DNA of 37,373 nucleotides from Akkermansiaceae bacterium (GCA_903875675.1 CAIQXC010000670.1:1-37373), one strand, 5' to 3'. Numbered from the stretch's first letter, positions 10,173-26,076 are shown. The notes: generated from the sequence alone by a model not told the origin. Made by a program: numbers and translations.

Positions 10173-10820
10173 TCAGGTGGCGGGCCTGCTGTCCAACTGG
10201 AAAAACTGGCCAGAGGTATGCGGAAGTTGATGGTGAAGGTGGTGGATAAATCCGGCGACCGCAGCGGGCGTGTTGAAAGCATCCAAGGCGTGCTCGGCTC
10301 GGATGGCAGCGCGCCGGAGAGCCGTCACCTGGCGGGTCATCGGTGTCTCCAAAAACCCCGGAAGGATGGCATTGACGCGGACGCCGTGGCGGCCGTGACG
10401 CGCGGCAAGCTGTTGGGTGAGGCCTAGCAGGCCGGCCTTGGCCGTGGCGTAGGCAGCTTGCCCGACAGGAGGGTGGCGTGCCGAAAAGCTGGAAATAAAA
10501 ACAATGTGGCCGCTGCCGCGTGCCAACATGCCGGGCAATACCGCTGCGGCACAGGCTTGGGCACCGCCAAAATTCACCGCGATGACGTCGTCCCAAGCCC
10601 TTTCAGATAGGTGGGCCAGCGGGGCGTCACGGGTGAGTCCCGCCGCACAAATGAGCAAATCCACCGAGCGCCCGCTAAAATACCCGCACAGCGCCGCCGC
10701 ATCGCAGACGTCGAGTTCGCCGTGACCGGGTGCGGACGCTTGCCACAGCGGGCTGTGAAAGGCAGCAGACAGGGCTCGACCGAGCCCGCCGCCGCCGCCG
10801 GTAATGACGAGTTGAAGCAT
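10173..10820 (-). CDS. SDR-family oxidoreductase, FabG-like (215 aa)
   Basis: This is a classical short-chain dehydrogenase/reductase. Visible motifs are the cofactor-binding TGGGGGLG (7-14), CAAG (58-61, the structural NNAG position), catalytic Asn83 in VNFGG, Ser in FISSFS (110-111), and Tyr124-x3-Lys128 in YATAK. The following VRVNAILPGFLETPM is also typical. It is somewhat shorter than most FabG proteins (about 245 aa), with a compressed region after the Rossmann start. NADPH-dependent carbonyl reduction is expected, substrate unknown. The fold begins at ATG 10820. An upstream in-frame start at 10859 would add a basic Pro-rich tail and is less likely. It is divergent from the ExbB gene with 87 bases between starts. 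Confidence 0.88.
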   Translation of the reverse strand: MLQLVITGGGGGLGRALSAAFHSPLWQASAPGHGELDVCDAAALCGYFSGRSVDLLICAAGLTRDAPLAHLSERAWDDVIAVNFGGAQACAAAVLPGMLARGSGHIVFISSFSARHPPVGQAAYATAKAGLLGLTQQLAARHGRHGVRVNAILPGFLETPMTRQVTALRRAAIRAEHALDAFNTPAAVAGFIHHLHHQLPHTSGQFFQLDSRPAT

Positions 10821-10907
10821 GCGCCGGGGATGCTGGCGCGGGGGCGGCTCGGGTGGCAAGCTTTTGGTGCTGGTCAGCTGTGGATGGGCAGGGTAGTTTG
10901 TCGCCGG

Positions 10908-11633
10908 ATGATCTTGGGATTGATGGAACCATCGGGCTTGATCGAACGGGGCGGACCTCTGGTCTGGATCCTGTTAGCTCTGGCGTTTGTCGGCACGGTC
11001 TGCGTGATCGATCGCTTGTTTTATTTCCACCGGGCCCGCATCAACGTCGGGGACTTGCTGGTGGGGCTGGCGCATCACATCCGGCGCCGGGCATTTGCGG
11101 AGGCGTTGCACGAAGCGGCGCGGGCACCCGGCCCGGTGGCACGGGTGACCCATGCGGCGCTGCTGCGCTACTACCTGCCGCGGCAGGATTTGCGCGATGT
11201 GGTGCAGGAGGCCGGCCAGTTGGAAGTACCGCAAATCGAAAACAACATCCGTGCCATCCTTGGCGTGGCTCTCTTGGCACCTCTGGTGGGCATGCTCGGC
11301 ACCATGGTCGGCATGGTCGAGACCTTCCAGCTCGTCAGCGAACAAGGCAGATTCTCCGGCCCTGGCGAACTCTCCGGCGGAGTCTTCACCGCCTTGATTA
11401 CCTCAGTGGTGGGACTGACCGTGGCGGTGCCCATGTATGTGTTTTACCTGTTTTTCCTAGGACGCGCCAAGCGCTTGGTGCAACGCATCGAACGAGCCGG
11501 CATTGAAATGGTCAACCTGATCTCAGACGCCCGGGAGGAAGCCGAATTCGCACCGTTCCGCAGTGAAGTGAGCGCTGGCAAAGGCGTGGCCAATTCCCCT
11601 CGCAAAGTTTCCCCTCGCGAAGTTTCCCCATGA
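10908..11633 (+). CDS. ExbB/TolQ/MotA-family proton channel protein (241 aa)
   Basis: This is an inner-membrane stator-type subunit that, with ExbD-type partners, uses proton flow to do mechanical work on the envelope. Three helices are seen: about 17-38, 115-140 and 160-185. The helix-2 signature GMLGTMVGM (128-136) and the helix-3 stretch FTALITSVVGLTVAVP carry the conserved Thr residues of the family. The tail has two copies of a short SPR(K/E)V repeat. The start is the ATG at 10908 (another at 10923). The frame extends further upstream but only through sequence opposite the SDR gene. Its stop overlaps the next start (ATGA), so it is translationally coupled to the ExbD-like gene. It heads a five-gene operon to 13558. 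Confidence 0.88.
   Translation: MILGLMEPSGLIERGGPLVWILLALAFVGTVCVIDRLFYFHRARINVGDLLVGLAHHIRRRAFAEALHEAARAPGPVARVTHAALLRYYLPRQDLRDVVQEAGQLEVPQIENNIRAILGVALLAPLVGMLGTMVGMVETFQLVSEQGRFSGPGELSGGVFTALITSVVGLTVAVPMYVFYLFFLGRAKRLVQRIERAGIEMVNLISDAREEAEFAPFRSEVSAGKGVANSPRKVSPREVSP
11595..11629 (+). repeat. 15-bp tandem repeat at the end of the ExbB gene
   Basis: Two 15-bp units (11595-11609 and 11610-11624, TCCCCTCGC-AAGTT with one difference) and the first five bases of a third lie at the 3' end of the gene and encode SPRKV-SPREV-SP. They run directly into the ATG of the ExbD-like gene. Confidence 0.85.
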
Positions 11634-12091
11634 AGTTGGAGATGACATTGCCTGAACGCCCCGGCTTCCTGCACGCGCTGCCGGCCTTCAATCTGTTTTT
11701 ATTGCTGATGCTATTTTTCAGGTTAGGGCCAGCGCTTGTCTCGCAATCTGGGGTGATGTTGGATATGCCGCCATCCAAGTTTCAAATGGAGCGCTTCCGC
11801 GACACCCTAGTAGTCACCTTGAGCCCCGGCCAAGGCGGCCCGAGCATCCACTTGCAACGTCATCCGGTGACGCTGGAAGAATTGGCGCAGCGCCTCGACA
11901 GCCTGCGTGCCGAGGGAGTCGCGGCCAAATCCGTCATTTTGCTACAAACCGATGCAGCAACGCCGGTGGGTGAAGAGCGCACGGTGGCAGAGTTGATCGT
12001 AGGCAAGGGGTTCCGCCTTGCGATGGTTGGCAAAGCGCCTCCCAAACTGCGGACTGCTGCCAGCCCAGACCCCAGCCAACCGGATTCATGA
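11630..12091 (+). CDS. ExbD/TolR-like protein lacking the key Asp (153 aa)
   Basis: The topology is that of ExbD: a short cytoplasmic tail, one membrane helix (about 17-37), and a periplasmic domain with the typical (I/V)-L-Q-T-D-A strand and a final alpha/beta unit. The helix reads LPAFNLFLLLMLFF. Aligned by eye with the two ExbD proteins at 18491 and 18937 (PMIDVLLVLLIFF and PMVDVVFVIMLFF), Asn21 sits where ExbD proteins have the proton-carrying Asp. It is coupled by overlapping stop/start codons to genes on both sides. It either works with another acid residue, forms a non-proton-conducting complex, or relies on a different ExbD. Assignment is good on context and topology. Confidence 0.78.
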   Translation: MKLEMTLPERPGFLHALPAFNLFLLLMLFFRLGPALVSQSGVMLDMPPSKFQMERFRDTLVVTLSPGQGGPSIHLQRHPVTLEELAQRLDSLRAEGVAAKSVILLQTDAATPVGEERTVAELIVGKGFRLAMVGKAPPKLRTAASPDPSQPDS

Positions 12092-12882
12092 GCCCGGCCC
12101 AGACCAACCTCAAGGATCTGAACAGCAGGCCGGTGCAGCTGCTATTCCACTGGCTCAGCCCCTCCAACTCGCTTGTGACCACTTGCGCCCCCATCGTCTT
12201 GGCCACCCTAGTCTTCGCTGTGCTGCTGGGCTTGGTGCGCATCAAGGTGGCCGCCCCTCAATTCAAAATGGCCAGCAAAGCGTCGTGGATGCTGCTGCCT
12301 GCCAGCGCCAACGGTGTGTCATGGGCACTGCGAGCCAAAGAGGGAGGCCCAATGCTGGCACGCTACGAACCAACCGAGTGGCAGGGGTATGCACCCTTGG
12401 CGCAAGAATCGTTGCTGGCGACGCGCCTCCCCGCCCTCGCCTACGGCCCAAGCCTGCGGCCGCTACCTGGCATCCCGCTCGCCCAAGCTCAGGCGCTCGC
12501 CGACAAGGGCGAAGCCGTTCTGCCGCGCCGTGTGCCGATAAGCGCCGCACGCCAAAACCTGCCTGCGGGCCGCTTGGCACCTGCGCTCTATCCCTTGTCT
12601 GCGCTCGGAACCAGTAGCCTGCCACACGATTTGCCGACGTTCACTGGAGAGGTCGATTCAGCACTGGCGGCCACCGACTGGCGCTTTTTGCTGCGCCTCC
12701 ATCCTGACGGCGGGGTGGCCGAGGCGGTGTCGCTGACGCGGGCGACGGGAACGGCCGCTGCCCCCTTGGAAAACTGGCTCCATGGGGTGGTTTTTGATCC
12801 AAAACTGGCTGCCGACGGTGGCTGGCTGGCCGTCGGAATCAGATTTAACAACTCACCCGCAAATGGAACTGACCCTCACTGA
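12088..12882 (+). CDS. Divergent TonB-like energy-transducer protein (264 aa)
   Basis: It has a cytoplasmic tail of about 28 residues, one membrane helix (about 29-51), a long Ala/Leu/Pro-rich periplasmic stretch, and a C-terminal module (about 197-258) reading WRFLLRLHPDGGVAEAVSL then LENWLHGVVFDP and WLAVGIRF. That order (strand with DG turn, helix, F-x-P, final strand) matches the TonB C-terminal domain pattern. The membrane helix lacks the S-x3-H motif of TonB. It occupies the TonB position after ExbB and ExbD, with ATGA overlap upstream and overlap with the following gene. I infer a divergent transducer. A simple structural protein is the alternative. Confidence 0.6.
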   Translation: MSPAQTNLKDLNSRPVQLLFHWLSPSNSLVTTCAPIVLATLVFAVLLGLVRIKVAAPQFKMASKASWMLLPASANGVSWALRAKEGGPMLARYEPTEWQGYAPLAQESLLATRLPALAYGPSLRPLPGIPLAQAQALADKGEAVLPRRVPISAARQNLPAGRLAPALYPLSALGTSSLPHDLPTFTGEVDSALAATDWRFLLRLHPDGGVAEAVSLTRATGTAAAPLENWLHGVVFDPKLAADGGWLAVGIRFNNSPANGTDPH

Positions 12883-13650: not shown

Positions 13651-16614
13651 ATGGCAGCCAGAAACTCGACCTCCTTACTTGCCCTTATCGCGTGGACCGC
13701 GCTATCAACAGTCCTGATTGATACTGCTGCGGCGCTGCCTCAGGCGACCCCGCCACTGGTGCCACCAAAGGCACCCATCAAGACCGTGGCGATCGCCGCC
13801 CTAAACCGAATGCTTCATGAAGCCGAGGCGGCGTTTGAAGCCAAGGAATACGCGACGGTCGTCACCAAACTTGAAGCCCTCATCAAGCTTCTCAACCCTC
13901 AGACGGCCAATGACGAAATGATGGAGGAGTTGTACTTCAAAATCGGCCTTGCCAATCTGCTCGCCAGCCAATTCGCCGAAGCTGAGACCGCCTTCACCGA
14001 CTGCGCCACCAAGTATCCCAATGGGATGTTTGCCAGTCGCTGCGCCTTGGGCGTCGGCAAGGCCTGCATGGGTCAGGACAACGCAGCCAAGAAAGAACTC
14101 GCCATCAAGGTGTTCAAGGTGGCCATGAAGGATCCAAAGCTCAATGCCGAAGCGGGTCTGGCCCTAGCCATGCTCTACAGCGAGACCGGCAAGCGCAAGG
14201 AAGCCATGGACGTCTTCAAGTCGTTGATGGGCGCGGACATCCGCAGCGCCAGCCAAACCACCGCTGCCGTGGGCGTCATCAACCTGCTCGCCGACGAAGG
14301 CAAACTCGAGGACCTCGTGTATTACCTCGACCGCCTGACGAATCAAGCCGGGGTGCGGGACGCCATTGCTTGGTACACCAATCAGGTGATTGTGCGCGGC
14401 GATGAATGCATGATGGCTCACGACTTTGATACGGCTCTGGCCATCTTTCAAACGATTCCCTCCCGCAACCAGATTGTCGATATTCAGACGCAGTCGCTCG
14501 ACGCTCAGCGCAAGATCATTGCCATTCTTGATCGCGCCATTGCCAAGGAGGATGCTGACGAAAAGAAGACCCCCAATGCACCCTTGGTACGCGGCATTGC
14601 ACGCGAACTCGTCGCAAGCCTCAACCCAGCCCTCGAAGCGAATGAGAAGGCTCTCGCCGCGATCAAGGAAATCAAGGATCTCGATGCCTCCCTGCTGTAT
14701 CGCCGCGGCCACTGTTTCTATGAACTCACGCGTCGTGAGGAGGCACGTCTTTGCTTCAGCACCCTGCGCCTGAAGTACCCCACCTACAAGGAGAACAAGA
14801 TCGCCGCCTACACCGAAATCATGATCATGCAGGAGCTCAAAAAGAGCGCCGGCTTGCTCGAACTCTGCAAGGCCTATCTCACCGCCTATCCAGAATCCAG
14901 CGACGCCGAAGCCGTCGCCACCCTCGCCGGCGAACTCCTCGTCGAACAAGCAAAATGGCCGGATGTCATCACCTACTATGCCGACCTCGAATCCCGCTTC
15001 CCAAAATCCACCCACCTCGACCGCTTTATCTTCTATCAAGGACTGGGACATTTCCTCAACGCCGGGGATGCAGCCGATTTCGCGCTGTCCACCCCCATGT
15101 TTGAAAAAGTCAACCGAAGCTACCCCAAGAGCGAGTTGTACGAACCCGCCCTTTACTATCTGGCGATGACGTATTTCCTGAGCAACGAGTACAAGAAAAC
15201 GGTGGCCGCCTGCTCCGAGTACCTCAGCAAGTATCCCAACGGATTGTATGCCGGCGACATGCAATATCGCCTCTCGTTCGTCGATTCGAACGACCCGCGA
15301 GTGCAGCCGGACAAGATCATCAACGACATTGAGGAGTTCATGAAGAACCATCCGACTGACGTCTCCAATGGTTCGATGCTGTGCCTGCTCGCGGATACCT
15401 ACAAAAAGAAGAACATGGACGACGAAGCTGCGGAGGCGTTCAAGAAGGCCGTCTGGAGCAAGAGCCCCGATGACGTAACCCAATACGCACTGGATTCCGC
15501 CACCACAATTCTTCAAGCAAAGAAGGATTGGAGCGCCATCGCTGAAATGCACGGTGCTTTCCTCAAGGACAATCCCGACAGCCAGCTGGCACTCCTGTCA
15601 GCAGGCAAAGTGGTGCAGATGAAAATCCGCGAAGGCAAAGGCGAGGAAGGCGCTCGAATCCTCGCCGAAAGCCTGCGCACCCGCATCAGCAATCCCAAAG
15701 TCCAACAAGTCGAGTACCTCCTCGACCTCATGGTCCAAACCCTCGTACCGCGCAAAAAACCTGCCAAGGAGGAAATGGAAGCCCTCGCCGAGCAACTCGA
15801 CGAACAACTCGTCGAAACCCTCAAACAGGTAGTCGGCGACAAGCCCAATCCCACCGCCACCGCTCGCATGTTCTACGCCCAAGCCCGTCTGAGCCAGTTG
15901 CTCTATCGGACGAGCCGGACCGACCGCTCAGACCTCTTGCTCAAGGGCATCGCCACCAACTATGCCAGCGAACCGGCCGTGCTCAGCCCGACCCTCCTCT
16001 CCGTGTGTGGCGACATTCTGCTTCAGGAAGAAAATCTCGACGGTGCACAAGCCATGTACCGACGCCTCGATGATAGCTACAAAGACTCTCTCTTCGCGGA
16101 TGCCGGCCCACTCGGCCTCGGTAACGTCGCCCTCGCCCGAAAAAAACCCGAGGAGGCCCTCAAAATCTTCGAGGATACCCTCGCGAACAATAAGGGCACC
16201 TCACGCTTCTGCGAAACCACCCTCGGCAAAATCCAAGCCCTCGTCGACCTCGGCAAATTCGAAGATGGCCGCAAATTGGCCGAGCAAGTGGTCGGCGACA
16301 AAATGTTCCACGGCGAAATGGCCGGCAAAGCCTATCTCATGCTGGCCGACAGCTACCGGGTCGAGGCCGCCCAAGCCGCCCCCGGATCTGATCCGAATGA
16401 ACTCATGCGCAAGGCCTATGCCACCTACCAACGGATGTGCATCACCTACCAAAGCCTCCCGGAAATTTGCGCCGAAGCGTATTGGCAGGCCGCTGAAACT
16501 GCCAAGGGACTCAATGAATTCGGCCTCGCCTCGGAGAACTTGAAAGCACTCACCACCCTTCCTAAACTTCAAAACACCAGGCGTGCCAGAGAAGCCAAGG
16601 ACAAATCCTTATGA
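13651..16614 (+). CDS. Exported TPR-repeat protein (987 aa)
   Basis: A signal peptide (about 1-29, ending in a small-residue AAALP stretch) is followed by an almost wholly helical protein built of TPR-type repeats. Units such as AEAAFEAKEYATVVTKLEAL, AETAFTDCATKYPNGMFA, ARLCFSTLRLKYPTYKEN, AAEAFKKAVWSK and AQAMYRRLDDSYKDSLFAD recur, many with the (K/R)-YP pattern seen in YbgF/BamD-like repeats. The protein is probably periplasmic and a protein-protein scaffold. It starts the operon that includes ExbB, two ExbDs and the toroid protein, and its stop overlaps the next start. It recalls the TPR partners of Tol-Pal and TonB systems, but at this size it is not a simple YbgF. Confidence 0.85.
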   Translation: MAARNSTSLLALIAWTALSTVLIDTAAALPQATPPLVPPKAPIKTVAIAALNRMLHEAEAAFEAKEYATVVTKLEALIKLLNPQTANDEMMEELYFKIGLANLLASQFAEAETAFTDCATKYPNGMFASRCALGVGKACMGQDNAAKKELAIKVFKVAMKDPKLNAEAGLALAMLYSETGKRKEAMDVFKSLMGADIRSASQTTAAVGVINLLADEGKLEDLVYYLDRLTNQAGVRDAIAWYTNQVIVRGDECMMAHDFDTALAIFQTIPSRNQIVDIQTQSLDAQRKIIAILDRAIAKEDADEKKTPNAPLVRGIARELVASLNPALEANEKALAAIKEIKDLDASLLYRRGHCFYELTRREEARLCFSTLRLKYPTYKENKIAAYTEIMIMQELKKSAGLLELCKAYLTAYPESSDAEAVATLAGELLVEQAKWPDVITYYADLESRFPKSTHLDRFIFYQGLGHFLNAGDAADFALSTPMFEKVNRSYPKSELYEPALYYLAMTYFLSNEYKKTVAACSEYLSKYPNGLYAGDMQYRLSFVDSNDPRVQPDKIINDIEEFMKNHPTDVSNGSMLCLLADTYKKKNMDDEAAEAFKKAVWSKSPDDVTQYALDSATTILQAKKDWSAIAEMHGAFLKDNPDSQLALLSAGKVVQMKIREGKGEEGARILAESLRTRISNPKVQQVEYLLDLMVQTLVPRKKPAKEEMEALAEQLDEQLVETLKQVVGDKPNPTATARMFYAQARLSQLLYRTSRTDRSDLLLKGIATNYASEPAVLSPTLLSVCGDILLQEENLDGAQAMYRRLDDSYKDSLFADAGPLGLGNVALARKKPEEALKIFEDTLANNKGTSRFCETTLGKIQALVDLGKFEDGRKLAEQVVGDKMFHGEMAGKAYLMLADSYRVEAAQAAPGSDPNELMRKAYATYQRMCITYQSLPEICAEAYWQAAETAKGLNEFGLASENLKALTTLPKLQNTRRAREAKDKSL

Positions 16615-17591
16615 AACTTCGTGCCCTCACACCTCCGCTCCCATTCCGTAGCGTGCTGCTCTCACTGAGCACGGGTGGCTTGCTTGCCCTCTCCCAAGCT
16701 CTCGCAGCCCCGGACGCTGCCGCCCCGACTGCTCCCGCAGCCCCGGCCAAGCCCGCCGCTCCTGCCAAACCTGCCAAACCTGGAACTCCCGCTGCCGCCC
16801 CAGCAGCCGCCCAACCCCCGACAGCCCTCGGGCCCACCCAAATCGTCCTCCAAAACGGGGTGTCCCTGCCATTGTCGGCAGTCGCGCTGAAAGGCGAAAA
16901 TTACGAAGTAAAGGTGGAAACCGGGCGCTTCGAAGTCGGCAAGACCATCCCGGTAACCTCGGTGGACCATGTGTTTGGTGATAAACCTGCGGCCATCAAT
17001 CAAGCCATCGCCTTGGTGCTAACCGGAAAACCGGTCGATGGTAGAAAGCTTCTCATCCCGCTTCTCGCCGAGCACAAGGATTCGGCAAAACTGCCGGGCA
17101 ACTTCTGGTTGGAGGCGGCTCGTGTGTCGCTCGTAGCTAACGCATTGGAAGGCGCTGGCCCCCAATGTGATTCCCTCGGCAAAGAGATTTCCGCCGTCTC
17201 GCCTGTATCACCCGATCCCTTCGTCGCCCTCAGCAAAGCTCTGGTGATGCATAAAACCGTCAAACTCGCCGATCGACAGGCCGCCCTCAAGGCCCTCACA
17301 ACCGACGCCCAACCCGCAGACGTGTGCGCCTATGCCAGCTTCTTCCTGGCACGTTTGCTGCAAGAAGAAAAACGCGATGCCGAGGCGCTGGAAGCCTACC
17401 TCGCCGTGCCCTGCTTGTTTCCCTCCGGCGGAATGATGCTTAACGGGATGGCCCAGTTAAAGGCAGCAGAGTTCCTAACTGCCGCTGATCGCCGCAGCGA
17501 GGCGGTTGCTCTGGCCCAGTCTGCGATGCGCTACACCAAGGATACCTTGGGTCACGATCTGGCCAACGACCTCTACCAAAGCATCAAATAA
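16611..17591 (+). CDS. Exported Ala/Pro-linker protein with helical repeats (326 aa)
   Basis: A signal peptide (about 1-32) leads into an Ala/Pro/Lys-rich flexible linker (about 33-72, repeats of PAKPA). A small beta module follows (IVLQNGVSLPLSAVALKGENYEV), then a helical domain with TPR-like helices (FFLARLLQEEKRDAEALEAYLAV). No enzyme motif is seen. It overlaps the TPR gene by four bases and is 62 bases before ExbB, so it belongs to the same operon. The Pro/Ala linker suggests reach across the periplasm. I do not recognise a named family. Confidence 0.78.
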   Translation: MKLRALTPPLPFRSVLLSLSTGGLLALSQALAAPDAAAPTAPAAPAKPAAPAKPAKPGTPAAAPAAAQPPTALGPTQIVLQNGVSLPLSAVALKGENYEVKVETGRFEVGKTIPVTSVDHVFGDKPAAINQAIALVLTGKPVDGRKLLIPLLAEHKDSAKLPGNFWLEAARVSLVANALEGAGPQCDSLGKEISAVSPVSPDPFVALSKALVMHKTVKLADRQAALKALTTDAQPADVCAYASFFLARLLQEEKRDAEALEAYLAVPCLFPSGGMMLNGMAQLKAAEFLTAADRRSEAVALAQSAMRYTKDTLGHDLANDLYQSIK

Positions 17592-17653: not shown

Positions 17654-18454
17654 ATGAAAAATGCCATTAAATACGCCGCCGTCGCGGCCCTGATGTTCCT
17701 GCCCATGGTCGCTTTTGGCGCGGATGGTGCCCAGCAAGCCGTCGTGGTCAAAAAAACCTTCATCCAAGTCCTCAAGGAGGGCGGTTGGTGTATGTATCCC
17801 ATCGGTCTCTTCTCCATTGGCACCGTTTGGCTCATCATTGACCTTTGGATTCGTACCAACGCCAAGAAAATGACCCCCGAACCCGATGTGTTCAGCGCCA
17901 AACAGGCGTTTCTCGCAGGCGACTACGTAACGGCTTATCAATCCATGAAATCCGCCGTCAGCCCCTTCGCCAAAGTGATCCAAGCCGCGCTCAGCTCGGT
18001 TGGCCACGGCAAGGATGCCACCGAGGAAGCTCTCCAGGCCGAAGTCGATAAAGTCAGCTCAACCCTGCAAACCCGCGTCAACTACCTCTCCGTTATCGGC
18101 GTTTGCAGCCCGATGGTCGGGCTGCTCGGCACCGTCTCCGGGATGCGCGGTGCCTTCGCCGCACTCGGTACCTCGGGCATCGGCGACACCTCAAAGCTCG
18201 CCGAGCACATCGGCGAAGTGCTCATCGCCACCGCATCGGGCCTCTTCATCGCCATTCCCGCCTTCATGGGATTCTATTTCCTGCGCAACAAGCTCCAAAC
18301 TGCCATCCATCACCTGGAGAGCGAAGCTTCGGCCTTGTTCCGCAATGCACCCTATGACTACCTCAGGGATGCGGATGTCGGCCAGGAAGAGACCTTCGCA
18401 GCGATGCCGCTGTGGATGCAAACCGAGCAGGCCGCCGCACCGGAATCCTTCTGA
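17654..18454 (+). CDS. ExbB/TolQ/MotA-family proton channel protein (266 aa)
   Basis: By family this is the main membrane subunit of a proton-driven ExbB-ExbD motor. It has an N-terminal signal-like helix (1-22, ending AFGAD), as in the longer ExbB proteins. Three membrane helices follow at about 45-66, 143-170 and 188-212. The signature SPMVGLLGTVSGM lies in helix 2, and VLIATASGLFIAIPAF in helix 3 holds the conserved Thr/Ser. A cytoplasmic loop with a helical hairpin sits between helices 1 and 2. It is the first gene of the motor part of the operon and precedes two ExbD genes. Confidence 0.92.
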   Translation: MKNAIKYAAVAALMFLPMVAFGADGAQQAVVVKKTFIQVLKEGGWCMYPIGLFSIGTVWLIIDLWIRTNAKKMTPEPDVFSAKQAFLAGDYVTAYQSMKSAVSPFAKVIQAALSSVGHGKDATEEALQAEVDKVSSTLQTRVNYLSVIGVCSPMVGLLGTVSGMRGAFAALGTSGIGDTSKLAEHIGEVLIATASGLFIAIPAFMGFYFLRNKLQTAIHHLESEASALFRNAPYDYLRDADVGQEETFAAMPLWMQTEQAAAPESF

Positions 18455-18490
18455 TGTCCCAATCCTTTCCCACCCTAACAACCAAAGACC

Positions 18491-18940
18491 ATGGCAGGCG
18501 GCGGCGGCAGTACTGAAAGCGGCGAACCGGAATTCCAGATCGCGCCGATGATCGACGTGTTGCTGGTGTTGCTCATCTTCTTCATGTGCATCACCACTGC
18601 GGAAATTTTGAAGGTGGACTCGTCCATCACCTTGCCGGTATCGGCCAGTGCAAAACCGCACGATGCCAAGATGACCAAACAGGAAATCGCCATCAACGTG
18701 CGTTGGAATGCCCAAGCCAATAAGGCCACGGTCTTGGTTGAAGACAAGGAATTCAAGACCCCTGGTGACATGATCGCTTATCTGAGGAGCCGCATCGAGG
18801 CCAAGCCCAATATGCGTGCCCTCATCCGTGGTGACCGCATGTTGCCGGCCTCCGAGATTCAGAAAGTGATGGACCTCGTCGGCCAAGCCACATTTGTGGA
18901 CATTGCCTTCTCAGCAGCCAGCAAGGAAAAAGCCAAATGA
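18491..18940 (+). CDS. ExbD/TolR-family protein, first copy (149 aa)
   Basis: A cytoplasmic tail of about 17 residues leads to one membrane helix with the proton-carrying Asp22 in APMIDVLLVLLIFFM. A periplasmic ExbD domain follows (LPVSASAKP, ALIRGDRMLPASEIQKVMDLVGQA). All expected family features are present. Its stop overlaps the start of the second ExbD (ATGA). Paired unlike ExbDs with one ExbB suggest a heteromeric peptidoglycan/partner-binding dimer. Confidence 0.92.
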   Translation: MAGGGGSTESGEPEFQIAPMIDVLLVLLIFFMCITTAEILKVDSSITLPVSASAKPHDAKMTKQEIAINVRWNAQANKATVLVEDKEFKTPGDMIAYLRSRIEAKPNMRALIRGDRMLPASEIQKVMDLVGQATFVDIAFSAASKEKAK

Positions 18941-19389
18941 AAAAGCGCCACAAGAAGGAATCCTCTGAAGTCAACCTCGGCTTCCAAATCGCTCCGATGG
19001 TTGACGTGGTGTTTGTCATCATGCTCTTCTTCATGGTGCTGGCCGGGGCCGTTCAGACGGAAAACACGCACAACACCAAGTTGCCCGGCACCATTCCGGT
19101 GAAGGATGACACGCCGACGCCCGACGAAATCTCCATCCGTATCGAAGACGACGGACAGGTATTTCTCAATGACGAACCGGTGGACAAACCTGAGGCCAAG
19201 ACCTTGCCAGAGTTGGCTGGTAACCTCATCAACCTTCACAACCTCTCCATCTCCGCGAATTCCCCCGAAGTGATGGTGACCATCTACGCCAACGAACTCG
19301 CCCGCTATGAGCGCGTCATCGACGTATTGGATGCCCTCACCCGGGCAAAAATTGGCAATGTGACGTTTCAAGCCGTCGCGCCAGAGTAA
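18937..19389 (+). CDS. ExbD/TolR-family protein, second copy (150 aa)
   Basis: It has a short basic cytoplasmic tail, one helix with Asp23 in APMVDVVFVIMLFFMV, and a periplasmic domain in which LNDEPVDKPEAKTLPELAGNL and VMVTIYANELARYERVIDVLDAL give the usual ExbD strand-helix order. It is distinct from the first copy outside the helix, so the pair is not a recent duplication. It overlaps the preceding gene by four bases and is followed after 43 bases by the toroid gene. Confidence 0.92.
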   Translation: MKKRHKKESSEVNLGFQIAPMVDVVFVIMLFFMVLAGAVQTENTHNTKLPGTIPVKDDTPTPDEISIRIEDDGQVFLNDEPVDKPEAKTLPELAGNLINLHNLSISANSPEVMVTIYANELARYERVIDVLDALTRAKIGNVTFQAVAPE

Positions 19390-19432
19390 CATGTTTCTGT
19401 AGTTTGAAAAGCCCCCAACCAACCCGACCATT

Positions 19433-21022
19433 ATGAACCATCAGGAAGAATACGAACAAGAGCAGGACCAAAATCTGGAAGAACTCGAAGCCATGGGTCC
19501 AGCCCCCATCACCAAATTGACCTTGTGGGATAAAATGGGCGGCCGCGCTCTAACCGTCGCGGTGGTGGTTCACTTGCTCATTCTGGCTCTTGGGGCGTTT
19601 TGGATTTTCCAAATCATCAAGCAGCCTGAAATTATTCCTGACTTCTTGCCACCAGGTGGTGGCGGCGGCGAGCGCAGCGCGGATCATGCCGTCAAGGAGA
19701 AGAAAATGAAGACCATCGTGCCCATCTCCAAGGCAAAACGGGTGGTCGCTGAAGGGGCGCGCTCCACTTACACGATCCCCGACCAAGGCGATAAATTCGG
19801 CGAAATGTCCCCCCTAACGTCACTCGGCGGCGGCGGCATGTCCGGCGGTTTGGGCGGTTCCGGCTCGGGCCATGGCTTTGGCAAAGGCAGCGGCAATGGC
19901 AATGGCATGGGCAACGGCAAAGGCAGCGGCAGGCTCTTCGGTCTCATTCCTCTGGCGATGAGCAAGCGCTGCTCCAAGGGCGACCGCCTCCAGCGCATCG
20001 CCGATAACGGCGGCGTTCCTGCCTGCGAGGATGCTGTGCTCAAAGGTCTGCGCTGGCTCAAGGCCAATCAGAATGCCGACGGATCCTGGAGCGGTCAGAG
20101 CTCGGTGGCCATGACCGGCCTCGCCCTCCTCGCCTACTTCGGCCACTGCGAAACCCCGGCCTCCGATGAGTTCGGCGAATCCTGCCTCAAGGGTATCGTT
20201 TACCTCGTTGAAATTGGCATGAAGAACGATGGCAAAATTGCCGATAACTACACCGCCAACCACTGGTCCTACGAGCACGGCATCGCCACTTATGCCCTCG
20301 CCGAGGCTTACACGTTCTGCAAAGAAATCGGCCAGGTCGTCCCCTACCTCGATGAAGTCGTCCAAAAAGCCGGCCAATTCATCATCGACCATCAGCACCA
20401 AAACGGCGGCTGGGCATATGCCTATGCGGTGACTGGCGGCCATACCGACATGTCGGTGGTCGGCTGGCAGATCCAGGCCATGAAAGCCTGCCTCCACACC
20501 GGCCTCAAGTTCCAAGGCCGGGCAACCTGCCTCACTCGTGCTTGGAAGTACCTCGCGTCCTGCCAGAACGTCAACGGTGGCTATGGCTACTCCGGCCCCA
20601 ACTCCGGCGTGGCGGATTATTTTACCCTCACCGGTGTGGGTGCCCTCTGCCTGCAAATGTGGGACAAGGGCAACGGCATGGAAGTGAACCATGCGATCAA
20701 GTACATCGAGGATCACACGAAGTTCGACTACAACGGCGTCTGCAGCGACCTCTACGGCCACTATTACGAAAGCCAGGCGATGATGCAACGTGGCGGCGAT
20801 GCCTGGAAATTCTACAATGGCATCTTCCGCGACCAAGTCCTGAACAATCAGGAAGCCGATGGCTCGTGGAAGGCCCCGGGCGGTGGTGGCAAGATCCGTG
20901 CCGCAGCGCCTAGCTATCAAGGCGACAAGGTCTATCGTACCTGCCTTTGCACCCTGATGCTCGAAGTGTACTACCGCTTCCTCAGCACTGGCGTCGGCAG
21001 CCACAGCGGTGGCATCCAATAG
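19433..21022 (+). CDS. TonB-type anchor fused to alpha/alpha toroid (prenyltransferase/squalene oxidase repeats) (529 aa)
   Basis: An acidic cytoplasmic tail (1-25) leads to one membrane helix (about 39-62) with His47, the same kind of in-membrane His as in TonB. A periplasmic stretch and a Gly/Asn/Ser-rich linker (about 132-167) follow, then a toroid domain (about 185-515). Repeats in the domain show the QW-like pattern: NADGSWSG, QNGGWAYAYA, NVNGGYGYSG and EADGSWKAPG, each followed by a helix. The DxDD acid motif of squalene-hopene cyclase is not seen, so cyclase activity is unlikely. It is last in an operon after ExbB-ExbD-ExbD, the place of TonB. I infer a proton-driven transducer whose output domain is the toroid. 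Family membership (squalene-cyclase-like fold) is firm, the role is inference. Confidence 0.88.
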   Translation: MNHQEEYEQEQDQNLEELEAMGPAPITKLTLWDKMGGRALTVAVVVHLLILALGAFWIFQIIKQPEIIPDFLPPGGGGGERSADHAVKEKKMKTIVPISKAKRVVAEGARSTYTIPDQGDKFGEMSPLTSLGGGGMSGGLGGSGSGHGFGKGSGNGNGMGNGKGSGRLFGLIPLAMSKRCSKGDRLQRIADNGGVPACEDAVLKGLRWLKANQNADGSWSGQSSVAMTGLALLAYFGHCETPASDEFGESCLKGIVYLVEIGMKNDGKIADNYTANHWSYEHGIATYALAEAYTFCKEIGQVVPYLDEVVQKAGQFIIDHQHQNGGWAYAYAVTGGHTDMSVVGWQIQAMKACLHTGLKFQGRATCLTRAWKYLASCQNVNGGYGYSGPNSGVADYFTLTGVGALCLQMWDKGNGMEVNHAIKYIEDHTKFDYNGVCSDLYGHYYESQAMMQRGGDAWKFYNGIFRDQVLNNQEADGSWKAPGGGGKIRAAAPSYQGDKVYRTCLCTLMLEVYYRFLSTGVGSHSGGIQ

Positions 21023-21092: not shown

Positions 21093-21121
21093 GTGCCGCC
21101 CACTCGTGGCGGCACTTTTTT
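21093..21121 (+). terminator. Rho-independent terminator after the ExbBD-toroid operon
   Basis: A perfect 8-bp stem GTGCCGCC / GGCGGCAC (21093-21100 and 21108-21115) with a 7-base loop is followed by six T (21116-21121). It ends 11 bases before the GTG start of the pseudopilin gene, so the cassette must be fed by read-through or by a promoter within the hairpin region. A weaker hairpin (AGCGC / GCGCT) lies just upstream near 21047-21063. Confidence 0.9.
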
Positions 21122-21132
21122 CCCCACGCTTT

Positions 21133-21792
21133 GTGAAAACTCACCCCACATCCCGCACCGGTCTGCCGGTCGGTGGCTTTTCCCTCGTCGAAATCGTGGC
21201 CGTCATGGCCGTGATCGCTCTGCTTCTCACTGCGGGCATCTACGCGTTGGGCAGCACCGGCGGACAGGCCCGGCAAGTCGCCACCACGACCGTCGTCGGC
21301 ATGTTGGAACAGGCGCGGACCAGCGCCATCACATCGCACTGCGTCGTCGTGCTGGCCGTGGCCGAGCCGGGCGAATATCCGTCCAACGACCATCGATGCC
21401 GCCTCGGGTTATTCAAAATTCACGAGTGGCCGGCCAAACCCGCGACTCTGGATGGCATCCCTCTCGGCCACTGGCAATCCCTGCCCGTCGGCGTGATCAT
21501 CCTGCCGGGCAGCGTCAGCGGCCTGCGAAATCCGCGTGACGAGCCAGCCATCACAATCCGTTACCTCGCGGCTAACCAAGCCACCTCAGGCCTCTTTTTT
21601 CTCCTCGCCTTCTCGCCACGCGGATCCCTGCTGTGGCCGTCCGGCGCGGATCCACTGGCGCTGCGCATCGCCGAAGGTGCCTACCGCAACGGCCAACCCA
21701 CTCCTAACACACGAAGCCGCTCCGGTGGCATCGCGGAAAGCCACTTGCAGATCGGCCGAATCACCGCCCGGCCCTATCAGTTTGACAAATGA
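21133..21792 (+). CDS. Pseudopilin, Verru_Chthon cassette protein D-like (219 aa)
   Basis: A prepilin leader ends at Gly15, with the mature start FSLVEIVAVMAVIALLLTAG (Glu at +5 of the mature protein). This is the classic type IV pilin/pseudopilin cleavage and methylation site for PilD-type peptidase. The C-terminal part is a beta-rich globular domain with a late LFFLLAFSPRGSLLWPSG segment. Size and order in a four-gene set match the Verru_Chthon D family (TIGR02596), which I recall from Verrucomicrobium and Chthoniobacter. The start is a GTG at 21133, because no ATG lies between the terminator and the leader. An upstream GTG at 21106 would lie inside the terminator loop. It is membrane-anchored or assembled into a pseudopilus. 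Confidence 0.8.
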   Translation: MKTHPTSRTGLPVGGFSLVEIVAVMAVIALLLTAGIYALGSTGGQARQVATTTVVGMLEQARTSAITSHCVVVLAVAEPGEYPSNDHRCRLGLFKIHEWPAKPATLDGIPLGHWQSLPVGVIILPGSVSGLRNPRDEPAITIRYLAANQATSGLFFLLAFSPRGSLLWPSGADPLALRIAEGAYRNGQPTPNTRSRSGGIAESHLQIGRITARPYQFDK

Positions 21793-21816
21793 CCCCAAAC
21801 AGAAAGAGCGAAACCA

Positions 21817-22353
21817 ATGGTAGCCCTCTCCCAATTTTGGATCAAACCACGCCGTCCTCAGCGAGGGCCGATTGTGGGTTCCTCGCTCATCGAAGTGCTC
21901 ATGGCCATGGGCATACTGGCGGTGGTGCTGCCACTGATATTCGCTGTGCTGGCCCGTGCCAGCCAAAGCTACGCCGAGGCGCAAGCTGAAACCCGTTGCC
22001 TGTCGATCCTGCCCGCCTGCATGAATGAAATTGAGGCCGCACAGCAAGGCACGACTCGCTATCTACCTGCCCTCCCCTGCGGCGTCCTCTTCCCCGCTCC
22101 CGGTACCATTCTCGCCCTCGCCTTTGCCCGCGATGGCCGTCTCCTCGGCTGCGTCGCCCCTGCGGCCTACCTCGCCGGCACCCGTCGACTTGCCGACGAG
22201 CCGATCCGCTATCTCGCCTCGTTGCACACCGAGCCCGCTCCAGCCCAACCCAACATGCCGACCATGCTCCACCTGCGCATCACTCTGGAGTATCCACCGG
22301 CTGCCCCAATGGCCAAGCGTCGGCACCTGGATTTTCACACATGCATCCCATGA
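21817..22353 (+). CDS. Pseudopilin, Verru_Chthon cassette protein B-like (178 aa)
   Basis: A long basic leader (1-21) ends in Gly21, followed by SSLIEVLMAMGILAVVLPLIF, giving the G-S-S-L-I-E prepilin site with the conserved Glu at +5. The mature domain is about 155 residues with two or three conserved-looking Cys. It ends in a strand reading LHLRITLEYPP, as in PilV/GspI-like minor pilins. The start ATG is 24 bases after the D gene stop, and the C gene starts inside its end. Position and size fit TIGR02598. Confidence 0.8.
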   Translation: MVALSQFWIKPRRPQRGPIVGSSLIEVLMAMGILAVVLPLIFAVLARASQSYAEAQAETRCLSILPACMNEIEAAQQGTTRYLPALPCGVLFPAPGTILALAFARDGRLLGCVAPAAYLAGTRRLADEPIRYLASLHTEPAPAQPNMPTMLHLRITLEYPPAAPMAKRRHLDFHTCIP

Positions 22354-23120
22354 ACACCACCGGCCACTTGCGACGCGCCTTCACTCTCATCGAGGTGTTG
22401 CTGGCGATGAGCGTGGGACTGCTGGTGCTCATCCTCGCGCTTTCGATGCTTGGGCGAACCCGCGATGAATCCGCACGCCTCGACGAGAGTGTCGCCGCTG
22501 ATCGGGATGCCCGCGCCGTAATCACCCAGCTCACCGCCGATCTACAAAGCGCCTCGTTTCACCAAGCCAGCGTGTTCGACCAAAGCGACACCCCATGGCC
22601 CGGCGACCGCCTCGGCATCTTCAGTCTTCAAGCCCCGGACGCACAAGCGCCGGCTGACCACATGGGTGACCTTTGCGCCATTCATTACTACCTCAAGGAT
22701 CAGCTCATCTCAGGCAAGACCGTTCGCTGCTTGATGCGCGGTTTCCGCCCTAGCAGCGACACATTCCAAGCCCTCCGCCTCAAACAGCCCACCTCCCTCT
22801 TCACCTGTTCCAAACGCGACGAAGCCCTCGCCTTCGGGATCATCTCATTCGAGGCCCGCCCGCAAATCCGTAACCCCGCAGGCCAATGGCAGGCCTGGGA
22901 CCCCCTTATGGCTCAAGCCCCCGCCGCCATCGCTTTCCGCCTCGTCATCGCCCGCCGAGAACTCGCCGCCAAACTCATCCATACCGCCGCTTGGAACGGC
23001 GACGGCACCGCCCGAGGTCTGTTAGGAATGCCCTCCATGGCTCTCAGCAACCGCCACCTCGAAGTGTACACAGCCATCATCCGCTACGGTCATCCGGCCC
23101 TAACTGAACGTAGGCTTTAA
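22341..23120 (+). CDS. Pseudopilin, Verru_Chthon cassette protein C-like (259 aa)
   Basis: The leader ends RRA followed by FTLIEVLLAMSVGLLVLILAL. The residue before the cut is Ala13 rather than Gly, which PilD-type peptidases can accept but which is less common. Glu18 is at +5. The globular domain is PilW/GspJ-like in size. It begins at ATG 22341 (overlapping gene B by 13 bases) or ATG 22350. It is followed 13 bases later by the large A gene. TIGR02599 is the family I would expect to match. Confidence 0.8.
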   Translation: MHPMNTTGHLRRAFTLIEVLLAMSVGLLVLILALSMLGRTRDESARLDESVAADRDARAVITQLTADLQSASFHQASVFDQSDTPWPGDRLGIFSLQAPDAQAPADHMGDLCAIHYYLKDQLISGKTVRCLMRGFRPSSDTFQALRLKQPTSLFTCSKRDEALAFGIISFEARPQIRNPAGQWQAWDPLMAQAPAAIAFRLVIARRELAAKLIHTAAWNGDGTARGLLGMPSMALSNRHLEVYTAIIRYGHPALTERRL

Positions 23121-23133
23121 CCGTCCCGAAGCC

Positions 23134-26076
23134 ATGTCCCAATACGCCTTGAAACCAGCCTTCATCCTGCCGACAGTGCTCTTTGTTATCTCGGCCTTGC
23201 TCATCCTCGCCGTAGGCCTGCTCCTCAACATAGGCCTCGAACGCCACTCCGCTCGCTCGTACGTTGACTACCAACGCGCCGAATTGGCCGCTACCGCCGG
23301 CCTCCAACAAATCGAAGCCAGCCTCAGGCACGCCACCTCCAACGACACGTTCCTTGTGTTGGAATCCATCTGCAAACCATCCAAGCCGACCGACCGCCAA
23401 CCCGCACCCCACCTATTCATCGCGCAGGGCCGGAGCGCCCCGAACCACACATTCATCTTCAGTTACCTCCCGCTCTTCAGTGCCACGCGTCAACCGGCGG
23501 ACACGACTTGGCTCAGCGCGCCGGACGCTGCAGGACTCGTGCCTGCGGTGTCTGACGTCCACCTCGATCTCAGTCCCCTGCCCTACCTTGAGCCGCTCCG
23601 CCTCGCCTGGGTTCCCATTCTCAATGAACGCCACCAGCTCGTCGCTCGCTACGCCTTCTGGGTTGAGGACTTGCAGGCTAAACTCGATCCTCGGTCCATT
23701 GGCAATGCCGATGGCCCCAACGCCTCCGCGCTTGCTCCAGGCTGGCCATTTCCCGCTCCAGCCCTCGATCCCAACCCCGACCATCCAGCGCTCGGCCCCA
23801 TCGCCCTTCACGCCATCGATCCAGCCTCCACCACCGCCCAACCCGGCAAGCTCCCTCAATCGCTCATCTCCAACCGCCATGCTTTGATCTCCCCAGACTC
23901 GCTGCTCGCCGCCGCCAACTTCCATCCCCCTCTAACCCGCGACCCCCACGGCCATCTCACTGATCCGGCGGCCTGCGCCGTCGAGGAAAATTTGGCAACC
24001 ACCACCCGCCCCTACCTGGAGCGGCCGTGCGTCCCCTACGTCTCCGGCATCGCCGCCTCAGTCGCGGCATCCCCCAAACTCAACCTCAACTCCCTCCTGG
24101 CCCTAGGCCCGGACGGCGTCGCCCCTATGGCCGCATTCATCAAGCTGGCCCTGCCGGAATTTGAAACCCGCAAAGGTGGGTTCCCCGACGACTACCTCCA
24201 ATCCCTTGCCGCCAACGCGATCGACTACGCAGACGCCGACTGCCAATCCACCCTCGTCGCTGGCAGCCACCGCGGCATCGATGCCTTTCCGCTCATCAGC
24301 GAGGTGATCCTGCAAGTCCACTACGCCGGTGAGCAACAACTCAACGGACGCCGCATCCTCAATTGGCGCCTCAAGTTGTTTGCCGAACTCTGGAACATGT
24401 CCAACATCGACGTCAGCGGCACCTTGCGCCTCAGCTACGAAGTGGCCCTGCCTATGGACGGTATCGGTGCCGGTTCCAGTTCCAAACGCTTCGACGACCC
24501 CGCCCTGCTCGACGATTCCACTAAAACCAGCCACCACCTCACAAAAATCGCCGGCAAATTCTGGTCGCCTGAGATCAACGCGACCCTGCGTGCCAATGAG
24601 TACAAAACCTATGAGGCCGCCGACGTTGCCTACGCCTTGGACGTCGGCCCCACCAGCATCACGGTGGCTAACCATTTCAGTCTGACCGAGCCGGAAGGTG
24701 CCACCGGCATCTCCCTGCTTTGGAACGGCCAGGAAGTGGATCGCGCCACCGCCATCATCCGCCAAAAATCGGGCCTCGAGTTCAATATCTCCACCCCTCG
24801 CTATGCTTCCAAGGCCACCGTCGCCGCCCTGAGCTTCGGGGCCTTCGGCTCCGAAATTGACAACCCCGGAGACCCTCGCATTTCCTACTACCTTCGCAGT
24901 ACTCCTCTCGCCGAAAATGCCAATCCGGAAAACTCCAGCCCTAACCGCCGCAACATCCGCCGCAGCACCATTTACGATGCAGACTCACCCCGCAAACCCA
25001 AAACCTACGGCAGAGTGCTGCCATCGGAATGGCCGGACGGTGGCCATGATTCCGCCGTCGGATCCTGGCCGCTGTCTGAGGACGACGCCGTGACCCCCAC
25101 CGATGCACGCTACCTCTGGGCCCAATCTCCCGTCGCCTGCCAAGCCCCCCAACGCATCTCAAATGCCGGACGATTCTTCAGCGCCACCGAACTCGGCCAC
25201 GTCTTTGACCCGGTCTTATGGCTGCCCACCTTCGATAATCCACAGGACACCGCTTCCATCCGCAGGGGACTCATGCCCGCCAACCGCTGTGCCTGGCCCG
25301 ACGTGCTCGCCGCCAGCCCTCCCAGCACCGACCACGGCGGCGGCAATTCGCTGCGCATCGGCCGCCCGGAACACGCGGCCTTTGACCAACCCGGCAAGCG
25401 TGCCTTTCACCTGCTGGATTTGTTCCATGCCGGCCGCTCGCGCTCCCCGGAGCCCGCCCTTCGCGAGGGCCATCTGGTCGAAATCTGCGGCCATGTGAAT
25501 CTAAACACCGCCACCAGGGATGTCCTGCGCGTGATGGCCGCCGGCGCTCTGGGACAGGACCCATCGCTGGCAACCGTCCCTGACCCCCTCACCCATCAGG
25601 CCGCGCCTCTCATGGCTCCCCCACCCACTCTAACCACTCTATACGCCCCGTCCACCGGTAACCAATCCGAAGCAGACTGCATCGCCGACGCCATCATCCG
25701 CTCGCGACCGTTTGCCAGTCCCTCGCAACTTGCCATGGTCAAGGATCCGGATGCCAAGCCGATCTTCGGCAACCCTAACATGTACCGCCCCGGCATCCAC
25801 GTACCCAACAACACACGCGTCCAATGGAGTGATGCCGCCGCAGAAGAGGTGTTCGCCCGCATGTACGAAGCTTCCACGGTTCGCTCGCGCAACTTCCGTG
25901 TGTGGGTCGTCGGCCAAGCCCTCGCGCCGACCCCTACCGCGAACTCCGCGCCGCAAGTTCTCGCAGAGGTCCGCAAGGTCTTCACCCTGTTTGCCGATCC
26001 CGGCCAGCGAAACGGCGACGGCGATATCAACCCTGATCAATCGAAATGCTCCGTCATCCATGAAAACTCCTTCTGA
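23134..26076 (+). CDS. Large pseudopilin-associated protein, Verru_Chthon cassette protein A-like (980 aa)
   Basis: An N-terminal helix (about 9-32: FILPTVLFVISALLILAVGLLL) without the usual charged +5 Glu is followed by RAELAATAGLQQIEASL. This is the layout of PilX/GspK-like proteins. A very long external part with beta-rich domains follows. Near the C-terminus are a helix-hairpin-type stretch (VEICGHVNLNTATRDVLRVMAAGALG) and RSRPFASPSQLAMV, as in GspK helix-hairpin segments (NxNTA). This is the biggest member of the cassette (TIGR02600 type). In type II secretion GspK caps the pseudopilus, so a tip role is a reasonable inference. The next gene overlaps its end by 17 bases. Confidence 0.8.
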   Translation: MSQYALKPAFILPTVLFVISALLILAVGLLLNIGLERHSARSYVDYQRAELAATAGLQQIEASLRHATSNDTFLVLESICKPSKPTDRQPAPHLFIAQGRSAPNHTFIFSYLPLFSATRQPADTTWLSAPDAAGLVPAVSDVHLDLSPLPYLEPLRLAWVPILNERHQLVARYAFWVEDLQAKLDPRSIGNADGPNASALAPGWPFPAPALDPNPDHPALGPIALHAIDPASTTAQPGKLPQSLISNRHALISPDSLLAAANFHPPLTRDPHGHLTDPAACAVEENLATTTRPYLERPCVPYVSGIAASVAASPKLNLNSLLALGPDGVAPMAAFIKLALPEFETRKGGFPDDYLQSLAANAIDYADADCQSTLVAGSHRGIDAFPLISEVILQVHYAGEQQLNGRRILNWRLKLFAELWNMSNIDVSGTLRLSYEVALPMDGIGAGSSSKRFDDPALLDDSTKTSHHLTKIAGKFWSPEINATLRANEYKTYEAADVAYALDVGPTSITVANHFSLTEPEGATGISLLWNGQEVDRATAIIRQKSGLEFNISTPRYASKATVAALSFGAFGSEIDNPGDPRISYYLRSTPLAENANPENSSPNRRNIRRSTIYDADSPRKPKTYGRVLPSEWPDGGHDSAVGSWPLSEDDAVTPTDARYLWAQSPVACQAPQRISNAGRFFSATELGHVFDPVLWLPTFDNPQDTASIRRGLMPANRCAWPDVLAASPPSTDHGGGNSLRIGRPEHAAFDQPGKRAFHLLDLFHAGRSRSPEPALREGHLVEICGHVNLNTATRDVLRVMAAGALGQDPSLATVPDPLTHQAAPLMAPPPTLTTLYAPSTGNQSEADCIADAIIRSRPFASPSQLAMVKDPDAKPIFGNPNMYRPGIHVPNNTRVQWSDAAAEEVFARMYEASTVRSRNFRVWVVGQALAPTPTANSAPQVLAEVRKVFTLFADPGQRNGDGDINPDQSKCSVIHENSF

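Follow-up and report, generated by a model that had tools for sequence, protein, structure and literature searches.

The Ton and Tol systems are the textbook routes by which the proton energy of the inner membrane is carried to the outer membrane, each with a single type of arm, and the gliding motor AglRQS of myxobacteria combines one TolQ-like with two TolR-like subunits. In the cryo-EM structure, Ser16 and His20 of TonB touch ExbB (PMC12215075), and the D-box strand of TonB is gripped by ExbD (PMC10907165). Recently (2025), transducers with a transmembrane (TM) helix bearing His and a vWA domain, placed after TPR-tolQ-tolR-tolR genes, were predicted in the PVC group, with the docking of the His modelled and no phenotype (PMC12204202).

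The stretch of DNA analyzed here (the window) comprises 37,373 nucleotides of an Akkermansiaceae bacterium (GCA_903875675.1, CAIQXC010000670.1:1-37373), a lake bacterium related to Akkermansia whose genome is a MAG of Akkermansiaceae type, and a 99% identical copy was found in CAIKHZ010000068 (Akkermansiaceae bacterium). An earlier note had read positions 17654–21022 as an ExbB gene, two unlike ExbD genes with intact Asp and a toroid protein, and the ORFs, the Pfam matches and the alignment of the Asp residues confirm this gene set (Table 1). The operon starts upstream of 17654, at the gene of a TPR protein. This gene and the following P326 (together 13651–17591) overlap by 4 bases, P326 ends 62 bases before ExbB, all have the same orientation and both belong to the operon. 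The TPR protein has CpoB/YbgF-like repeats and a signal peptide (by eye). P326 has a signal peptide (also by eye), a small beta domain and TPR-like helices (model pLDDT 84); it matched no Pfam family above the cut-off, and its fold search gave weak TPR matches only. The nearest solved relatives of the ExbB are TolQ (7e-14) and ExbB, and in NCBIfam both the ExbB and the ExbDs scored best against the TolQ/TolR models, with scores far under the equivalog cut-offs. The start of the second ExbD overlaps the stop of the first, and both subunits retain the proton-binding Asp (APMID, APMVD), as do all aligned relatives. Two neighboring gene groups were also seen in the window: upstream (10611–12882) a second ExbB-like/ExbD-like pair with a 264-aa gene of no assigned family, which is found too in L076 and partly in L108, and downstream (21106–26076) four genes with pilin-like N-termini, weakly similar to the Verru_Chthon cassette proteins C and D and to GspK, which follow the toroid gene in the same order in L075, L076, L080, L083, and L108.

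Table 1. Genes of the toroid operon and parts of the toroid protein, with positions counted from the first base of the window.
Feature	Position	Strand	Evidence
TPR protein, 987 aa, periplasmic	13651..16614	+	Pfam TPR_6 3.5e-17, NCBIfam tol_pal_ybgF 1.3e-24
P326, 326 aa	16611..17591	+	conserved place in relatives
ExbB/TolQ-like motor subunit	17654..18454	+	PF01618 E 3.4e-26
ExbD/TolR-like subunit a, FQIAPMIDV	18491..18940	+	PF02472 5.9e-16
ExbD/TolR-like subunit b, unlike a, FQIAPMVDV	18937..19389	+	PF02472 5.1e-19
TM-anchored toroid protein (putative transducer), 529 aa	19433..21022	+	
TM helix, residues 37–61, His47 in-membrane (codon 19571–19573)	19541..19615	+	model helix
Linker, residues 62–173	19616..19951	+	mostly pLDDT <50; conservation in alignment A5
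Alpha/alpha toroid, 12 helices, residues 174–517	19952..20983	+	mostly pLDDT >90

The toroid protein was modeled with AlphaFold2 from 42 aligned relatives, and the model agrees with the succession of membrane helix, Gly-rich linker and toroid that had been proposed. The best match of the toroid among solved structures is squalene-hopene cyclase (Z 27.3, rmsd 2.8, 287 residues, 20% identity), while the Pfam matches of the protein to SQHop_cyclase and Prenyltrans are weak and sub-threshold; no match to TonB_C (PF03544) was obtained. Three QW motifs can be recognized in the toroid by pattern, and a motif check agrees with the earlier note that the DxDD cyclase motif is absent. As read from the sequence, the nearest conserved Asp-x-x is D339-M-S341, with no Cys; the beta subunit of protein prenyltransferases has the zinc ligands Asp-x-Cys ... 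His. A class II terpene cyclase or prenyltransferase was set aside as the primary reading, since the fold fits and the motifs do not, and a thioester toroid of the complement/TED type was ruled out because the CGEQ motif is absent. In the usual layout of alpha/alpha toroids, alternate helices are inner and outer. With the helices assigned in this way, the six inner ones are more conserved than the outer ones (mean entropy 0.75 vs 1.36) and carry strongly conserved residues (D339, E291, Y441, Y444, and Q448), which suggests that the cavity is a ligand or partner site.

His47 is invariant in alignment A1 (19/19) and also in A5, which takes in versions of the arm with vWA and PA14 domains. The helix had been called TonB-like, and this stands for the in-membrane His; the other half of the SxxxH motif is missing in this protein, where Ala43 replaces Ser at position -4, although the TM helix of most distant members does have SxxxH (e.g., GSVIFHV, VSVILHV), the spacing of Ser16 and His20 in TonB. 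The linker is disordered in the model (pLDDT <50 over residues 93–173) and consists of a DFxP segment just past the membrane, ~24 residues beyond the His, a KRVxAEGA...IPD segment and a Gly-rich run, the first two being conserved in A5. By analogy with the TonB D-box, the DFxP segment is a candidate ExbD-docking strand.

The order TPR-P326-ExbB-ExbD-ExbD-toroid recurs within the group of about genus rank to which the locus belongs and, outside it, in further families of Verrucomicrobiales (L047, L050–L054). Among 20 regions from other lineages of the phylum, picked by toroid score alone, the run ExbB-ExbD-ExbD-toroid was present in 11 (L191, L193–L196, L198–L203), in most cases with TPR and P326-like genes upstream. 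Recurring in so many genomes, the gene order is not due to chance, and the linkage of toroid and ExbBD genes, on which the earlier note had staked its reading, is kept throughout the order and elsewhere in the phylum. Outside the phylum, a plasmid search gave one toroid, on a Planctomyces plasmid, with no motor gene among its listed neighbors. Several variants were also observed. Three or more ExbD genes, not two, are found in the motor operons of L290–L293 and L027. A second ExbB-ExbD-TPR module and then an arginine-decarboxylase-like gene lie downstream of the toroid in L016–L026 and L081–L103. In L299 (1765–4758), ExbB-ExbD-ExbD is followed by a 997-aa protein with propeller, peptidase and PDZ domains (by eye) and without the anchor module. 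Finally, VIT-vWA-toroid fusions with an ITIH-like front and the toroid at the end occur in L055:183-3371, from the same genome as the locus, and L067:5421-8672 (domain scan for L055).

The toroid is one of several domains found on this anchor. Homologous operons of the order end in a protein that joins this anchor and linker to a vWA domain (L211 and L212; sub-threshold Pfam match, DTSGSM by eye), and in L301 and L302 the toroid slot is occupied by a PA14-type arm in which a SAM domain comes first (PA14 by Pfam in L301, by eye in L302). The arm may also sit before the TPR gene, with vWA in L292 and L293 and a PA14-type domain in L294, and in L084, L087, and L157 a PA14 arm adjoins the toroid operon. 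The presence of vWA or PA14 on the same anchor and motor operon indicates that the heads are interchangeable. When the anchor module alone was used as query, it turned up in 73 of 118 relatives, and two closed genomes hold 20 and 13 copies of it; all the non-toroid arms examined (35/35) keep the His. Both closed genomes have a motor operon of the same type without an adjacent arm, so that their arms would act in trans. Anchor and locus-type ExbB (called at E <= 1e-50) are both present in 71 of the 118 genomes and both missing in 41, leaving six discordant, two with the anchor only and four with the ExbB only (Fisher p 1e-24, uncorrected for relatedness). One of the anchor-only genomes is 57% complete, and the other has a contig ending inside ExbB. 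Regarding the PA14 arms, the SAM domain of L301:4680-6317 and L302:6355-7929 is N-terminal and presumably cytoplasmic, and the PA14 arms of L250, L256, and L257 adjoin large autotransporter-type beta-strand-repeat proteins, one of them fused to a chondroitinase-AC-like domain; this adjacency (4 of 8 neighbors tested, around 3 PA14 arms) comes without a background rate and is a lead only.

The in-membrane His follows the proximity of the motor genes. A TM segment is present in 141 toroid proteins; 51 of them count as adjacent, with ExbB or ExbD on the same strand no more than 4 kb away, and the His is present in 50 of the 51. The sole exception (L182/L196) has an intact operon, the protein at L196:7049-8584 lying in a complete operon with a TM helix devoid of His, and the second toroid of the same genome (L197) is likewise. 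The 66 toroids without the His comprise this adjacent one, 38 without ExbB/ExbD in the retrieved DNA, 25 with short flanks and two with ExbB/D nearby outside a same-strand run. Their helices are mostly of the type TISSIVIALL..., plus copies from a different genus within the family, with His at the distal end of the helix, and the linker segments partly recur in those without a motor neighbor. Another 15 toroids bear the His away from ExbBD. On the toroid tree the His changes about four times, and His and adjacency are phylogenetically clustered rather than independent events; an independent-pairs test of the two was not significant, with too few independent changes. Tandem toroids without a motor-type His were seen in L165–L174, which belong to g24, a different genus within the family, and no close homolog of the locus ExbB was found in three g24 genomes tested.

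Overall, the coupling of the toroid protein to the ExbB/ExbD motor is well supported, and we give a probability of about three in four to the reading of this locus as a proton motive force-driven transducer of the TolA/TonB kind, in which the toroid would be one of several heads on a common anchor served by one motor. The proton-driven device suggested in the earlier note is supported by the linkage, by the His tracking adjacency, by the co-occurrence of anchor and ExbB and by the published vWA transducers. An ExbB pentamer and an ExbD pair would form an inner-membrane motor of the 5:2 type, on the side of which the helix of the toroid protein may dock via its His, as TonB and TolA do, while the periplasmic domains of the ExbDs may grip the DFxP segment. 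Protons flowing through ExbB/ExbD would set the arm in motion, by a pull or a rotation, and the flexible linker of ~110 residues, which could cross the periplasm if extended, would relay the motion to the toroid. As to what the toroid moves or presents, we infer that its cavity might bind a ligand or partner at the peptidoglycan, at the outer membrane or among the TPR proteins of the operon, the TPR protein and P326 being the first candidates. Against this reading weigh the phylogenetic clustering of His and adjacency, the lineage of L196 with its operon but no His, and the partial recurrence of linker segments in His-less toroids away from a motor. The Ser/Trp pair in TM1 of ExbB, a contact of TonB/TolA, points the same way, since it occurs only with altered spacing; a Trp is conserved in most ExbBs of the module, but the pair was not counted as support. 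More broadly, we lean toward a single ExbB-ExbD-ExbD' motor driving exchangeable TM-His arms (toroid, vWA, PA14; up to about 20 per genome), a general-purpose periplasmic winch powered by protons whose job would be set by the head.

Other explanations have to be considered. The toroid could be chiefly an enzyme acting on glycans or lipids that is tied to the motor so as to be positioned or regulated, any force on it being incidental; its fold is common to many enzymes (terpene cyclases, GH76, epimerases) and residues of its inner helices are strongly conserved, but DxDD is absent, the nearest conserved Asp-x-x is D-M-S and not the D-x-C of prenyltransferases, and the vWA and PA14 heads that replace it are binding domains and not enzymes of one pathway, which makes this unlikely even as the foremost of the alternatives. 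Unlikely too, and ranked just after it, is a device for motility or surface adhesion like AglRQS, rather than for envelope maintenance or transport. The one ExbB with two unlike ExbDs and the pilin-like genes of the Verru_Chthon type, which come right after the toroid gene at this locus and in its near relatives, would fit such a role, and gliding has been suggested for the vWA outputs (PMC12204202); yet no gliding gene was identified, and only a few close relatives have the pilin-like genes next to the operon.

That the locus is a variant Ton system for nutrient uptake, the toroid engaging TonB-dependent receptors, seems very improbable. The genome has at least four matches to such receptors, but it also has two ordinary TonB_C proteins, on contigs with their own ExbB, which could serve them, while the receptor-binding beta domain of TonB is absent from the toroid protein and none of the tested genes of the operon and its flanks encodes a receptor. 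As the genome retains TonB_C genes, ExbBs and receptors, the toroid system is additional to Ton, and the replacement of TonB claimed in the earlier note applies at this locus, which has no TonB_C, and not genome-wide. We consider least probable of all that toroid and motor genes are neighbors with unrelated envelope functions and no physical coupling. This would account for the His-bearing toroids away from ExbBD and for the many related toroids that are never near one, but not for an order kept over large divergence, the conservation of the His, the swapping of heads in the same slot and the genome-wide co-occurrence.

If one motor does serve toroid, vWA and PA14 arms, the energization of the envelope in Verrucomicrobiota would be far more versatile, and proteins annotated as enzymes for their prenyltransferase/squalene oxidase repeats would act as heads that work mechanically or bind ligands. 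Variants provided by nature, with swapped heads, lost His or lost motor, make the coupling directly testable.

Compared with described systems, the locus shares with ExbBD-TonB the ExbB/ExbD families, an N-terminal TM helix with a conserved His and a periplasmic linker, and differs in having a Gly-rich rather than Pro-rich linker, two unlike ExbDs and TPR partners, and no TonB_C. It resembles TolQRA-Pal in its motor subunits, nearest to the TolQ/TolR models, and in its CpoB/YbgF-like TPR protein, but it lacks the C-terminal domain of TolA, and neither TolB nor Pal was found among the operon genes tested. With AglRQS it has in common one TolQ-like and two TolR-like subunits, whereas the anchored toroid arm is different and no Glt genes were identified. 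Fold and QW motifs are those of squalene-hopene cyclases and prenyltransferase toroids, from which it is set apart by the missing DxDD, the membrane anchor on a disordered linker and the motor operon. The closest likeness is to the vWA transducers of PMC12204202, with the same TPR, tolQ-like and two unlike tolR-like genes and a TM-His arm in which a disordered linker precedes a globular domain, although here the head is an alpha/alpha toroid and there is no vWA. The earlier note knew of no characterized example; a vWA version of the operon plan was predicted in 2025. The main text of PMC12204202 makes no mention of toroid, PA14 or squalene, and we found no description of a toroid or PA14 domain with ExbB/TolQ in the open-access literature, one elsewhere being possible. 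The toroid locus can therefore be placed with an operon plan that had recently been predicted in a vWA version, as one more form of it.
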